A stretch of DNA of 22,367 nucleotides. It comes from a virus. Below the pieces are notes generated by a model. It did no database searches, was not told the DNA's origin, and was given only the letters and a program-made list of their open reading frames with translations. Location of the stretch: the IMG/VR virus record IMGVR_UViG_3300001827_000042, positions 1 through 22,367 of that record; one strand, 5' to 3'. Positions within the stretch are counted from its first letter, which is position 1. Every line of letters begins with the position of its first letter. Shown here one piece after another: positions 1 through 22,367 of this stretch. The translations under genes and the position numbers were made by a program.

Positions 1-20
1 GGTTCTGGTTCTGGTTCTGG
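1..20 (-). repeat. GGTTCT hexanucleotide tandem repeat encoding Gln-Asn dipeptides
   Basis: Three perfect copies of GGTTCT plus a further GG start the window. On the coding (minus) strand they encode alternating Gln and Asn in the linker of the DUF1376-type protein. The true repeat number is unknown because the window cuts it. Confidence 0.8.
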
Positions 21-403
21 GCCGGTTTCGTAACCATTACGTCACCCTTACACACAGAAGACTTTGCACGACTCTTCCGAACCGCCTCACGGTTGTTCCG
101 AGCCTCTTTTTCTGCCTTCGCACGCTCTTCAGACATGCGGGGATTGACGAGCCAGTTCTCACCATTTTCTCCCTCAACCGTCTCGAACTTGTCTCTGATA
201 AGGAGCCAAATCTGATGAGTCAGACCTGGGCAAGCAATACAGAGTTGATCGAAGTTGTTGGGGAGTTTGTGACCAGCCGCTTGCAAAGCACAGAGTTGCC
301 AAAATGCTCCTCTTGCTTCCAACGGTAAGAAGTTAGTGCCGCCGATGTAATCATCTGGGTAAAACTTGACCCAGGGCACTCTGCTTTTTCTCTCTACGGT
401 CAT
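1..403 (-). CDS. DUF1376-type phage replication protein, 5' part only
   Basis: The reading frame opens with ATG at 403 and runs off the window at position 1 without a stop, giving about 134 residues. The N-terminus reads VPWVKFYPDDYIGGTNFLPL followed by EARGAFWQLCALQ, which matches the pattern of the DUF1376 family of phage and prophage proteins (a Y/F-P-x-D box, then an E-x-R-G-A-x-x-x-L box). Members usually sit in replication modules, and some are thought to act like helicase loaders or primosome proteins; that role is inferred here. After about residue 85 the protein becomes basic and charged and ends at the window edge in a Gln-Asn dipeptide repeat, as linkers of this family often do. 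An SD-like AAAGGTGG lies 7 bases before the ATG. It follows the SSB-like gene by 22 bases and ends the recombination/replication cluster. Confidence 0.72.
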   Translation of the reverse strand, partial: MTVERKSRVPWVKFYPDDYIGGTNFLPLEARGAFWQLCALQAAGHKLPNNFDQLCIACPGLTHQIWLLIRDKFETVEGENGENWLVNPRMSEERAKAEKEARNNREAVRKSRAKSSVCKGDVMVTKPAQNQNQN

Positions 404-425
404 CCTTGACCACCTTTCAGTTTAA

Positions 426-803
426 TTAAAATGGGATTTCATCATGAACAACATTGGTCAAATGCTGTCGTTGTGGAGCCTCTTGTTGTTGTGACTGGTT
501 TCCGAACGATGGATTTGGTTCAACATTTGTTGCAGTCGGGAAGATGGAATCAGTCTGAGTAATGGGCTGGTTGCCTGAAGTCGTTTGCTCAATCGGCAGA
601 TTGACTTGGATTGAGATGTAGGGAGTTCCGTTTTGTTTTGACGTTGCATTCCAGCCACTCAATCTTCCGCTAATCATTTGACCATTGAAATCAATTTCAA
701 TTTTGCCGGTGAAATCAGGCTGTCGAGTTCCTGGTTCTTTTCTGTTGTTAAGGAACAAGGCTGCGGTGCCGATTTTTTCTGATAGTGGTTTTTGATCGTT
801 CAT
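426..803 (-). CDS. SSB-like single-stranded DNA-binding protein with acidic C-terminal tip
   Basis: About 125 residues. The first 65 or so form a compact beta-rich segment (GTAALFLNN, then PDFTGKIEIDFNGQMISGRLSGWNA, in part) that resembles the small phage beta-barrel proteins of DUF736/SSB-like type. The middle is Gln/Asn/Pro/Thr rich and probably disordered. The protein ends in VVHDEIPF, very close to the DDDIPF tip by which bacterial SSBs recruit partner proteins. That tip and the position beside an annealase and an exonuclease argue for ssDNA binding in recombination or replication. The ATG at 803 shares a base with the upstream stop (TAATG) and has AAGGA about 7 bases upstream. A TTG at 809 is in frame but would leave no room for the SD. 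The OB-fold itself is not proven by eye. Confidence 0.6.
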   Translation of the reverse strand: MNDQKPLSEKIGTAALFLNNRKEPGTRQPDFTGKIEIDFNGQMISGRLSGWNATSKQNGTPYISIQVNLPIEQTTSGNQPITQTDSIFPTATNVEPNPSFGNQSQQQEAPQRQHLTNVVHDEIPF

Positions 804-1201
804 TACCAATCCTTCTTTTCTCGTGTTTCGTGATTTTGAAAAGTTTGCATCTCGTCAGCACTAGCAAACCCAGTACCGTCAGAGATAAATCCAAGGCTCG
901 CCAGAGCCCTACCGATTGCTGCGGTTTCGCACTTCTCAACGAAGCCAACTTGACCGCCCCTAGTTCTTTCTGCCATTGACATGCCTTGTGCAATTTGCAC
1001 TTGGTTGTTTTCTAATGGAACATCAATTGTCGCCCTGACTACAACACTTTGAAGATATCCGGCTTCATTGTATTTCGTGTCTATCAAATCTGTTGTGATT
1101 GACGAACCCGGAAATTTGGCATGCAATCGTTTGACTCTTGACTTGACCAACTCATAAGAGTTGCCCTTGAGATTGATTGTTTGTGCTTTCAGCATTCCCA
1201 T
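803..1201 (-). CDS. Probable Rad52-like single-strand annealing protein
   Basis: 132 residues. The C-terminal half contains VEKCETAAIGRALASLGF followed by an ASADEM segment. This is the hallmark of phage annealase-like proteins of the Rad52 superfamily and their relatives (an alpha-helical A-I-G-R-A-L box after a strand carrying VVVRATI). Such proteins anneal complementary single strands and work with a phage exonuclease. The gene overlaps the end of the RecE-like exonuclease gene by 13 bases and the SSB-like gene by one base, so three recombination functions are translationally coupled. The ATG at 1201 has AAGGAG 7 bases upstream; a second in-frame ATG lies at 1195. At 132 residues it is short compared with RecT or Redbeta and is closer to small Sak-type proteins. 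The family assignment rests on the motif and the context, and the function is inferred. Confidence 0.55.
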   Translation of the reverse strand: MGMLKAQTINLKGNSYELVKSRVKRLHAKFPGSSITTDLIDTKYNEAGYLQSVVVRATIDVPLENNQVQIAQGMSMAERTRGGQVGFVEKCETAAIGRALASLGFISDGTGFASADEMQTFQNHETREKKDW

Positions 1202-2097
1202 TCTTGGACTCCTTCATATCCAGTAGGCCATTCGTTTGAGTGGAAGCATCGTGAGAAGTCGATCAGTTCAACTCTCAATGTCTCTTCCAAGATATCAAGT
1301 GTCTCAGGTCTGAACGCCCAGACACCAACTTTGTGCGGCACACGCTTTTCAACTGCTACCAAGAACACATCAAAGTCATCGGACAGTTCAAGAGTTGACA
1401 GTCCTGCTTTGCAAACCCTAGTGATTGTTTCTCGGTAGAAGCACATCTGCTGCGGGTATTGGAACATTCGGGCTTTTCGCTGGAACTCATGCAGACATTC
1501 GCAGGTTTTGAGATCCAAGAAGCCACAAATTTTGCCATCATCATCAAGCAGTAGTTTGTCAGCCTTGCATTGCAACGTGATACCAAGTTGATCAGAGGGG
1601 TAGCGAAACACTGACTCTGGCAACCCAGGTCTGCTAAGAAGTTTGTGGGCAACCTCTTGCTTTGCAATGGCTTCTTGCATATTTTCTACCAAGCCCCACT
1701 GTTCAATGTTGCACAGTTCTCGACCTTCATACTTCTGTCTGAAGTTGACCATGGCTTTTTGATATGCAGCAGACGATTCACCATACTCTTTGCCAGTCTT
1801 TGGATTGATCAAACCAATCTCTTCAGCAATCTCAGGGGTGCTTACTTGGTATCGAGAGTCGAATGCTTCCCGACCCTCAAGAATCAAACAGTGAGCCATC
1901 TTGCCCAGAGCCATTGCTGGCGATTCTGTCTGCTGATCAATGTTGTCAATGAATCGGGCCTTGTAGTCGGCTGGCGAACCACGAAAGACTTTGAAAGCAC
2001 TGCTGGCAATCACCAACCCTGACTTGCAATATCCGTGGTACTCCTCATCTTCTTCAACAAATGGTCCCCCGCATTTGATACCCATCACTTCTTTCAT
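1189..2097 (-). CDS. RecE-like PD-(D/E)XK exonuclease (exodeoxyribonuclease VIII type)
   Basis: 302 residues, or 304 if an ATG at 2103 is used. The domain order matches RecE/DUF3799-type phage exonucleases. It has an N-terminal SAFKVFRGSPADYKAR helix, then a His box (AMALGKMAHCLILE, His about residue 70), an ADKLL aspartate (about 180), the FLDLKT motif giving Asp-x-Lys (about 195 and 197), and finally a QQMCFY helix corresponding to the Q-x-x-x-Y motif. The set of His, Asp, Asp and Lys is complete, so the nuclease should be active. Family members degrade one strand of duplex DNA to expose ssDNA for an annealase, which here is encoded immediately downstream with an overlap. AAAGGA lies 6 bases before the ATG at 2097 but directly abuts the ATG at 2103, so 2097 is preferred. 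Its first 44 bases overlap the preceding small gene. Confidence 0.82.
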   Translation of the reverse strand: MKEVMGIKCGGPFVEEDEEYHGYCKSGLVIASSAFKVFRGSPADYKARFIDNIDQQTESPAMALGKMAHCLILEGREAFDSRYQVSTPEIAEEIGLINPKTGKEYGESSAAYQKAMVNFRQKYEGRELCNIEQWGLVENMQEAIAKQEVAHKLLSRPGLPESVFRYPSDQLGITLQCKADKLLLDDDGKICGFLDLKTCECLHEFQRKARMFQYPQQMCFYRETITRVCKAGLSTLELSDDFDVFLVAVEKRVPHKVGVWAFRPETLDILEETLRVELIDFSRCFHSNEWPTGYEGVQEWEC

Positions 2098-2266
2098 TTG
2101 CATTCCTTTCTGCTTCGTAAAAAGTGTTGAATGGTCCTATCGGGTTAGTCTCCGGGAGACTTGAATCTTTTTTCTCCCACCAATACCAACCCTCTTCTGT
2201 GATTGTGTAACAGAATTCGTGAGGGCCTGTAATGAAAAAAAAACCGATACTGACATTATGTGTCAT
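2054..2266 (-). CDS. Small hypothetical protein, 70 residues
   Basis: Not recognised. The protein has an aromatic core (CYTITEEGWYWWEKKD) followed by NPIGPFNTFYEAERNANE. This looks like a small folded phage domain in which a beta hairpin is followed by a helix with the pattern G-P-F-x-T-F-x-E-A-E. It overlaps the upstream gene by 11 bases and the exonuclease start by about 44 bases, both on the same strand, which supports a genuine coupled gene. There is no good SD before the ATG at 2266, so translation probably depends on reinitiation. A run of nine T on the coding strand encodes the Phe-Phe-Phe stretch near residue 9 and is a possible slippage or sequencing-error site. No function can be assigned. 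Confidence 0.5.
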   Translation of the reverse strand: MTHNVSIGFFFITGPHEFCYTITEEGWYWWEKKDSSLPETNPIGPFNTFYEAERNANERSDGYQMRGTIC

Positions 2267-2606
2267 CAGACTTGTTCATATTCCGATTTGCCGCGTGAAG
2301 GAGTGACAGAAGATTGTCAACTCTATCAAGTGGCATAGCGTCAATAAGTGCCGACCGGAACTGCTGTAATGACATCACAACTGGTATTTCATCGGGTGGA
2401 GTGTCAGGGTTCTGTTCTTCTGCTTTATCACAAGTATGGTGCATCAGGAGCATGAACTTGAAGACATCGGGCAGGTAGGTTGCCCAAGTTGACATCACTT
2501 CCGCCACATCATCCGCTCTAGTCTGCATCTGCAACTCTGACTTGTCACAGAATTGCATGAAGAAGAACAGGGTTCTGGCTAGTTTTTTCTGAGTCGTGTC
2601 TGACAT
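2256..2606 (-). CDS. Hypothetical early protein, 116 residues, first gene after the attenuator
   Basis: Not recognised. It appears mostly alpha-helical: helices around RTLFFFMQFC, a DVAEVMSTWATYLPDVFKFM segment, and a C-terminal SALIDAMPLDRVDNLLSLLH segment. No transmembrane stretch or enzyme motif is evident. It is the first gene of the DNA-metabolism operon. The start codon at 2606 immediately follows the T-tract of an intrinsic terminator hairpin. The only SD-like bases (AGGGA, 7 bases upstream) lie in the 3' arm of that hairpin, so both transcription and translation of this gene could be controlled by that structure. The stop codon overlaps the start of the following small gene by 11 bases. 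Confidence 0.6.
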   Translation of the reverse strand: MSDTTQKKLARTLFFFMQFCDKSELQMQTRADDVAEVMSTWATYLPDVFKFMLLMHHTCDKAEEQNPDTPPDEIPVVMSLQQFRSALIDAMPLDRVDNLLSLLHAANRNMNKSDDT

Positions 2607-2641
2607 AAAAAAATCCCTAGGCGATTTTACTCACCTAGGGA
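2607..2641 (-). terminator. Intrinsic terminator / possible attenuator hairpin
   Basis: On the plus strand TCCCTAGGCGA (2614-2624) and TCACCTAGGGA (2631-2641) are inverted repeats of 11 bp with one G-U wobble and a 6-base loop. Reading the minus strand, the hairpin is followed directly by seven T (2613-2607), the canonical factor-independent terminator layout. There is no T-tract on the plus-strand side, so it works on leftward transcription only. It lies about 30 bases after the predicted start of a strong promoter and directly before the start codon of the next gene. This is the arrangement of an attenuator rather than of an end-of-operon terminator, although it may also stop readthrough from the tail genes. 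Confidence 0.82.
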
Positions 2642-2670
2642 CCAACTGAAAGGATGTACGACATGCACAT
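2635..2670 (-). other. Possible 11-codon leader peptide overlapping the terminator
   Basis: In the leader between promoter and terminator, ATG at 2670 opens a frame MCMSYILSVGP that stops at TAG (2637-2635) inside the 5' arm of the terminator hairpin. Its start would lie only a few bases after the predicted transcription start and has no SD, so it may be accidental. It is recorded because a leader peptide ending inside a terminator stem is the usual layout of translation-dependent attenuation. Confidence 0.2.
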
Positions 2671-2679
2671 CGCGGTAGG

Positions 2680-2707
2680 ATTCTAACAGAACCACTGGCA
2701 AAGTCAA
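2680..2707 (-). promoter_or_regulatory. Sigma70-type promoter for the DNA-metabolism operon
   Basis: Reading the minus strand, TTGACT (2707-2702) and TAGAAT (2685-2680) are separated by 16 bases, each matching the consensus at five of six positions. The predicted transcription start is near 2673. It points towards the replication/recombination genes and lies just upstream of the terminator at 2641-2607. The -35 box overlaps the stop codon of the small ORF upstream. It is the best promoter I found in the window. Confidence 0.68.
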
Positions 2708-2868
2708 GCCTTGCAACAGTAATTCCGTTGATAATCGCCCTGGTGGAGACTGACCAGAGGATTTTCGCAAGAACAAGTCTTGCATGGGGAGAAGAGGAAA
2801 GCAAGGAACTTGAAGATTTGTGACATGCTGGAGTCCTTTCCGGTACAGATTATATCGACCGGAAGCAT
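2704..2868 (-). CDS. Small cysteine-containing protein, 54 or 40 residues
   Basis: Not recognised. Two in-frame ATG codons each have an SD. The ATG at 2868 gives 54 residues and has AAAGG 6 bases upstream, right after the stop of the tail gene. The ATG at 2826 gives 40 residues and has AAAGGA 7 bases upstream. The shared part begins MSQIFKFLAFLFSPCKTCSC and ends YCCKA, so it has a short hydrophobic start, a C-x-x-C-x-C cluster and a later C-C pair. This could bind a metal or form disulfides, but no function is proposed. The hydrophobic stretch is too short for a normal membrane span. The stop overlaps the -35 box of the downstream promoter. The good ribosome sites and absence of a large gap support it; the small size argues for caution. 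Confidence 0.48.
   Translation of the reverse strand: MLPVDIICTGKDSSMSQIFKFLAFLFSPCKTCSCENPLVSLHQGDYQRNYCCKA
2838..2864 (-). repeat. Inverted repeat flanking a TATAAT box
   Basis: TTCCGGT (2838-2844) and ACCGGAA (2858-2864) form a perfect 7-bp inverted repeat around a 13-base centre. On the minus strand the centre contains a perfect TATAAT (2854-2849). No convincing -35 box lies 16-18 bases upstream. Read as RNA, the 3' arm runs into the AAAGGA that serves the ATG at 2826, so folding would tend to hide that ribosome site. It could be an operator over a weak promoter or a translational hairpin. Confidence 0.45.
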
Positions 2869-21994: not shown

Positions 21995-22313
21995 CCAACA
22001 ATTCCTTCTTCAGTTCGTCTAGGGCATCCACCGCTTCTGGGGATTCGTCAAGCAAGCCAAGCCGACGCAGCCAGCGTTCCATTCTGTCGGACGCACTGTT
22101 TTTGATGTCTAGTGCTGGATGGGTTCGTGGTTGTCCCTGACTGCCAACGGTGATCAAACCCTGCTCGTCAAGAATCACGCTTGCCTCAAACCAATCTCTG
22201 AACTGCTGTGCAAGTTGGTCGATCAACGCGGTTTCTGCCGGGTTGTAGTCCCGCATAGCCAGAATCGTGTCCTTGAACCTCAAACTCAGCATTTTTGCTT
22301 CTTCCGACCTCAT
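21987..22313 (-). CDS. terS: Terminase small subunit (P27-like)
   Basis: 108 residues. It is placed directly before terL, overlapping its probable start. The C-terminal part ALDIKNSASDRMERWLRRLG matches the end of P27-type small terminases, which typically read H-P-x-x-x-x-x-x-x-x-x-x-x-x-x-L-R-x-x-x-x-x-L-G-L before the stop. The middle segment (ALIDQLAQQFRDWFEASVIL, then QGLITVGSQGQPRTHPAL) is also typical: helix, then a strand, then a short loop ending H-P. The protein is shorter than usual at the N-terminus and lacks the G-R-P-P-K-P segment that begins many family members. The ATG at 22313 overlaps the preceding frame as ATGA and has GAGG 8 bases upstream. It recognises phage DNA and starts packaging with TerL. 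Confidence 0.8.
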   Translation of the reverse strand: MRSEEAKMLSLRFKDTILAMRDYNPAETALIDQLAQQFRDWFEASVILDEQGLITVGSQGQPRTHPALDIKNSASDRMERWLRRLGLLDESPEAVDALDELKKELLAG

Positions 22314-22367
22314 CTCAAAAACCTCGATTTTTTTCTCTTATTTTTCGGCGTGCCCATCCGCCCGGTT
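22310..22367 (-). CDS. 3' end of an upstream gene, cut by the window
   Basis: A frame open from the window edge stops at TGA 22312-22310, overlapping the terS start as ATGA, the same coupling used elsewhere in this operon. The visible residues TGRMGTPKNKRKKSRFLR are very basic. An internal ATG at 22357 would give only 15 residues. In related phages an HNH endonuclease often precedes terS, but nothing here proves it. It could also be a chance opening. Confidence 0.35.
   Translation of the reverse strand, partial: TGRMGTPKNKRKKSRFLR

Follow-up and report, generated by a model that had tools for sequence, protein, structure and literature searches.

Our analysis of the late/early gene boundary of a phage genome points to a dual-output unit, in which a single promoter would yield a phage small RNA that pairs with ribosome-binding sites (RBSs) and, by readthrough, would feed the early operon; from the sequence comparisons at hand we hold this model to be a real possibility, somewhat short of probable. 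The DNA analysed, here called the window, is a phage contig of 22,367 bases whose main genes lie on the minus strand, where the late block runs from the terminase (21,904) to ~2,704 and early-type genes occupy 2,606 to the window end. Among the viral contigs and the bacterial and archaeal genomes that we scanned, only three were relatives spanning the junction, namely G001 (3300030372_002816, L011), G002 (3300030012_002028, L014), and G003 (3300030430_001510, L016), while three further terminase-carrying contigs (L022–L024, 6–14 kb) are apparently too short to reach it. The comparison set is four genomes and effectively two lineages (window/G001 and G002/G003), with identities to G001, G002, and G003 of 99, 94, and 95% for the terminase, 96, 79, and 78% for the nuclease, and 86, 64, and 62% for the first early gene. 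The features on which the argument rests are the following.

2704–2826, minus strand: 40-aa Cys-rich ORF, last of the late operon, conserved in 4/4 phages, with RBS GAAAGGACTCCAGC
2680–2707, minus strand: sigma70-type promoter TTGACT-16-TAGAAT with extended -10 (TG), from consensus match and conservation
2607–2673, minus strand: predicted terminated small RNA of ~67 nt, from its fold, with the start placed from the -10 box
2653–2671, minus strand: hairpin 1, GATGTGC-ATGTC-GTACATC, 7 pairs, kept in G001
2644–2653, minus strand: linker CCUUUCAGUU, the proposed seed, unpaired except for its first base
2607–2643, minus strand: intrinsic terminator, at which the late operon is expected to end as well, from fold, stability, and a compensatory change
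2256–2606, minus strand: first gene behind the terminator, 116 aa, conserved in 4 phages
1189–2103, minus strand: RecE/exonuclease VIII-like nuclease of the early operon (PF12684, E 6.7e-18; phrog_412, E 1.6e-36)
803–1201, minus strand: 132-aa protein of the early operon (phrog_11717, E 1.5e-15)
426–809, minus strand: single-strand DNA-binding protein (SSB)-like gene (phrog_18154, E 1.6e-7)
413–422, minus strand: AACTGAAAGG, RBS of the replication gene and proposed seed target, a 10-nt perfect complement 9 nt before the ATG at 403
1–403, minus strand: primosomal/replication-initiation-like gene, cut by the window end (G002 homologue: phrog_9327, E 1.5e-9)

In our model, the promoter, which overlaps the last late ORF at its stop codon, would start a transcript at the late/early boundary near 2673, and transcription would usually stop ~67 nt later at the terminator, where late-operon transcripts would stop as well. 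From its 5' end, the short product would comprise a hairpin, the linker UCCUUUCAGUU in unpaired form, and the terminator hairpin. Pairing of this linker with AACUGAAAGG is predicted at early-gene RBSs, namely that of the replication gene in the window and those of three or more genes in the nearest relative, and in the cell it may lower translation of these genes, probably within the early-to-late change. The fraction of transcripts that reads through would supply the recombination–replication operon, comprising the 116-aa gene, the RecE-like nuclease, the SSB, and the replication protein; a readthrough mRNA from the same promoter is implied because we recognise no other promoter for this operon in the window. 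A more specific version, which on the sequence comparisons we regard as rather unlikely, is that the small RNA silences the phage's own early genes via a shared RBS tag AACUGAAAGG, with seed and tag changed together between lineages (CCUUUCAG with CUGAAAGG; CCUUUCUG with CAGAAAGG), while the same promoter feeds the replication operon by readthrough; the RNA would then define a phage-made regulon in which early mRNAs are tagged for shut-off.

All numbers in the initial annotation of this DNA proved right. The promoter that it claimed is present on the minus strand, with a -35 box TTGACT at 2707–2702, a 16-nt spacer, a -10 box TAGAAT at 2685–2680, and then 6 nt to the expected start. It is the only promoter-like site matching at least 10/12 positions on both strands of the window (22 kb), and G001 likewise has a single such site on both strands; Markov expectations are 2.8 and 3.75 sites, respectively, or 0.2 and 0.1 with the TG extension. 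Because sites matching at least 9/12 positions occur in the window at chance level (11 found vs 11.3 expected), the consensus match alone is insignificant. In G001, both boxes are identical to those of the window while 4/16 spacer bases are changed, and the equivalent position in G002 and G003 holds a weaker promoter-like TTGAAC-17-TACCAT (8/12). The 40-aa ORF, which contains ..CKTCSC..NYCC.., has its TGA (2706–2704) inside the -35 box of the window; this overlap, hairpin 1, and the unpaired linker with its RBS matches were all absent from the initial annotation. A separate promoter overlapping the terminator was rejected, since the loop TAAAAT has no -35 and is TTAAAT in G001, so that it is not kept.

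The predicted 67-nt RNA has a fold of -30.0 kcal/mol (z = -6.7, 0/200 shuffles), and the terminator, the most stable terminator-like hairpin in the window, reaches z = -6.6 by itself (0/200 shuffles). An 11-bp hairpin followed by seven T that touch the ATG had been described here and was borne out: the stem (2641–2614) has 11 pairs, or 13 with two outer G-U pairs, and a 6-nt loop, and the seven T at 2613–2607 (U7 in RNA) adjoin the ATG at 2606. Aligning the leader in related phages for covariation of the stem, as had been proposed, gave one compensatory change, A2636-T2619 to G-C, in G001. The Shine–Dalgarno (SD)-like bases of the gene, said to lie in the 3' arm, do so in the window and G001 (AGGGA) but not in G002 and G003 (GGGCGG). 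Hairpin 1 is modest by itself (z -1.8) and in G001 has lost one loop base and changed one U-A pair to U-G. In the G002 and G003 leaders, three different hairpins replace those of the window and G001, and the terminator likewise ends almost on the ATG (TTTTTTTATTATG); the order of hairpin, unpaired CAUCCUUUC linker, terminator, and ATG is kept in both lineages. On sequence, consensus, and conservation, the locus has its own promoter and intrinsic terminator for a discrete short RNA, and no unit of promoter, terminator, and ATG was found in 57 other viral loci (307 kb).

A second strong hairpin stands directly at an ATG on the minus strand of the window (~15708–15639), 3' of the major capsid gene. 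It is present in 4/4 phages, with a stem that differs by compensatory changes, no promoter is seen at it, and its U-run is short or absent. Because this hairpin also ends at an ATG in 4/4 phages, the closeness of hairpin and start codon is not in itself special here.

Turning to the linker, the longest block common to all four leaders is CATCCTTTC, extended to TACATCCTTTC in the window, G002, and G003; the 11-nt block common to the window and G002/G003 was reached in 0/1000 and 4/1000 shuffle pairs, and the 9-nt block of G001 in 33/1000 and 47/1000. In every predicted fold, the linker sits between hairpin and terminator and is mostly unpaired. Both strands of every genome were searched for complements of that genome's linker. 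In the window, the linker is the perfect complement of AACTGAAAGG, and this longest match, 10 nt, is at the RBS of the replication gene (422–413). Outside the locus, the G001 linker has its three longest complements (12, 11, and 10 nt) at RBSs without exception: two precede right-arm genes (oriented positions 28305 and 28837) and one precedes the replication gene (21729). The window lacks the right arm, which holds two of these three targets. Among 58,394 loci in G001, no 10-mer except CCTTTCAGTT has its complement at three RBSs, a figure that is post hoc because the seed/target idea was formed after the match was seen, and the only other place of this RBS-complementary 10-mer in G001 is the linker. 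Neither the 307 kb of other viral loci nor the late genes of this phage contain AACTGAAAGG.

Since the core CCUUUC complements ordinary SD sequences, any stretch resembling an anti-SD would be expected to give part of this match; the specific part in the window and G001 is AGUU with AACU. The 16S rRNA tail CCUCCUUUCU of many bacteria would explain AGAAAGG, as in G002 and G003, but not the AACU of the window and G001. In G002 and G003, which contain no CTGAAAGG, the linker reads CCUUUCUG, and CAGAAAGG is found in early genes of the right arm. Complementarity there is shorter (8–9 nt, or 10 with one G-U), three of the matching sites in G002 are copies of one leader, and the match is not extended at the homologous replication-gene RBS. 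Ranking by duplex energy places RBSs at ranks 1, 3, and 4 in G001, fifth in the window, and outside the first ten in G002 and G003, the whole-genome ranking outside G001 being dominated by GC-rich chance duplexes. Altogether, an accessible, conserved seed complementary to target RBSs is found in both lineages, strongly in the window and G001 and weakly in G002 and G003. Pairing of the linker in cis with the SD of the 40-aa ORF was rejected, as its 7 nt in the window and G001 are lost in G002 and G003.

The initial annotation had left open attenuation, antitermination, or a stable ~67-nt RNA with control of the operon as a second role. Of these, the RNA is the best supported, by its conservation, by the match between linker and RBS, and by the absence of another recognisable promoter in the window, while peptide attenuation fails because the frame is broken. 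Antitermination is the main alternative, which we place on the unlikely side: the promoter–terminator pair would keep the early operon off until a factor, of phage or host origin, acts either at the promoter or on the leader RNA to permit readthrough, and the short RNA would be a by-product. In lambda, Q acts at pR' and N at nut. Such a gate would fit the position of the operon, which has a strong terminator in front of it and no second promoter that we can recognise, and the conserved leader hairpins and linker could be its recognition element. The layout is established in lambdoid phages (PMC6266700; PMC4496710), where the lambda promoter pR' is followed at once by the terminator tR' in front of an operon (PMC6266700), just as the promoter here is directly followed by a terminator. 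However, pR' serves late genes whereas the genes behind our terminator are of the early type, for DNA metabolism; the subset of phage proteins scanned, many of them of unknown function, included none recognisable as Q- or N-like, and no qut-type site was identified; and the linker as the sole 10-mer matching three early RBSs in G001 would be left unexplained. The 116-aa first gene was rejected as a recognisable antiterminator, having no family match and a low-confidence AlphaFold model without structural match; phage records hold no homologue of it and no significant DNA match of the leader.

A purely passive layout is, in our judgement, improbable. In this reading, compactness of the genome would have pushed the late-operon terminator up against the following gene, the terminator would leak enough for expression of the early operon, and the RNA would be functionless, its RBS matches reflecting anti-SD-like composition. 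A terminator for late transcripts is expected at this junction, the capsid-gene hairpin sets another example at an ATG in 4/4 phages, and CCUUUC matches generic SDs. Against this, a terminator of the late operon only would need no upstream promoter, the promoter boxes, hairpin 1, and the linker are conserved, and the extended AACU match is unlikely to arise from composition.

Folded without the terminator 3' arm, the leader forms hairpin 1 and a weak hairpin, with no strong competing antiterminator. A riboswitch-like attenuator or known RNA family was rejected on this fold and because no Rfam hit reached the gathering score. The match to NsiR1 (RF02399), at 26.7 bits vs a gathering score of 39, was treated as chance; it spans the full-length model but lies mostly in the terminator hairpin and U-run, whereas the 5' part of the model matches poorly. 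An attenuator in which ribosomes on an 11-codon frame decide terminator formation is very improbable and already largely refuted by a frameshift: the ATG-started frame (2670–2635) does end inside the hairpin, as annotated, in its 5' arm, but it is not a conserved peptide because a 1-nt deletion in G001 shifts it and changes its residues, it is absent in G002 and G003, and it has no run of a regulatory codon.

Comparison with known systems offers precedents for the dual-output model. IsrK of the Salmonella prophage Gifsy-1 arises from one phage promoter that gives a short terminated RNA and a readthrough transcript with phage genes, and it activates translation of its own readthrough mRNA by altering the fold of that mRNA (PMC4825925). 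The unit described here would likewise use a single phage promoter for a small terminated RNA and for a readthrough mRNA, but its predicted targets are the RBSs of several early genes, which would presumably be repressed; the predicted short RNA of the window matches its own presumed readthrough mRNA over 10 nt at the replication-gene RBS, ~2.2 kb downstream. DapZ has its promoter at the stop codon of the upstream coding gene (PMC9438474), and here too the promoter lies at the end of an upstream coding sequence, with the terminator also shared with that operon; in contrast, DapZ is chromosomal and Hfq-bound, whereas ours would be encoded by a phage, with the U-tract running straight into the start of a gene. 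In Staphylococcus, RsaA, RNAIII, and further RNAs carry a conserved unpaired C-rich seed that covers SD sequences (PMC3961350). The phage linker is similarly an exposed C-rich seed for SD sequences but differs in being CCUUUCAGUU rather than UCCC, in lying between two hairpins, and in having phage genes as predicted targets. These are analogies, and we claim no homology of the phage unit to IsrK, DapZ, RsaA, or RNAIII.

Phage small RNAs acting on phage genes are already known, among them sar, OOP, and VpdS, and those whose functions we found described belong to a small number of model systems, chiefly enterobacterial and Vibrio phages (PMC12197685). If the dual-output model is true, a small RNA would have been found from sequence in an uncultured phage without close relative in the phage records searched, its seed clear and testable and its targets named, and the same promoter of a compact phage would serve an RNA regulator as well as a gated early operon.

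Some further observations concern the genomes as a whole. Relatives of the 132-aa protein are labelled ssDNA-binding (Thermus phage ssDNA binding protein) or hypothetical, and in G002 the SSB and replication genes are separated by a C5 cytosine methyltransferase gene (L014:6453–7442). The window (22313–22367) and the contigs of G001–G003 begin ~40–55 nt before the small terminase gene, which suggests a defined genome end; because they start ~40 nt before this gene, G001–G003 look like near unit-length genomes of ~30 kb. A 355-aa right-arm protein of G002 (L014:10246–11313) has a dockerin-like tail CPSDLNEDGMVGFQDLLQVLGD; curated models gave no confirmation of the repeat, CPSDLNEDG, which we take as a hint of a Planctomycetota host. 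The right arm of G003 contains, on the minus strand at oriented position 28299, a promoter-like TTGACA-16-TACAAT (11/12) that is likely an early promoter, judging from its sequence. Finally, the right genome ends of the relatives carry tandem arrays, of ATATTTCTCAGA units in G001, GACGGTCCAGCTCT units in G002, and GAGAGCCCACCG units in G003, possibly an origin or end region.
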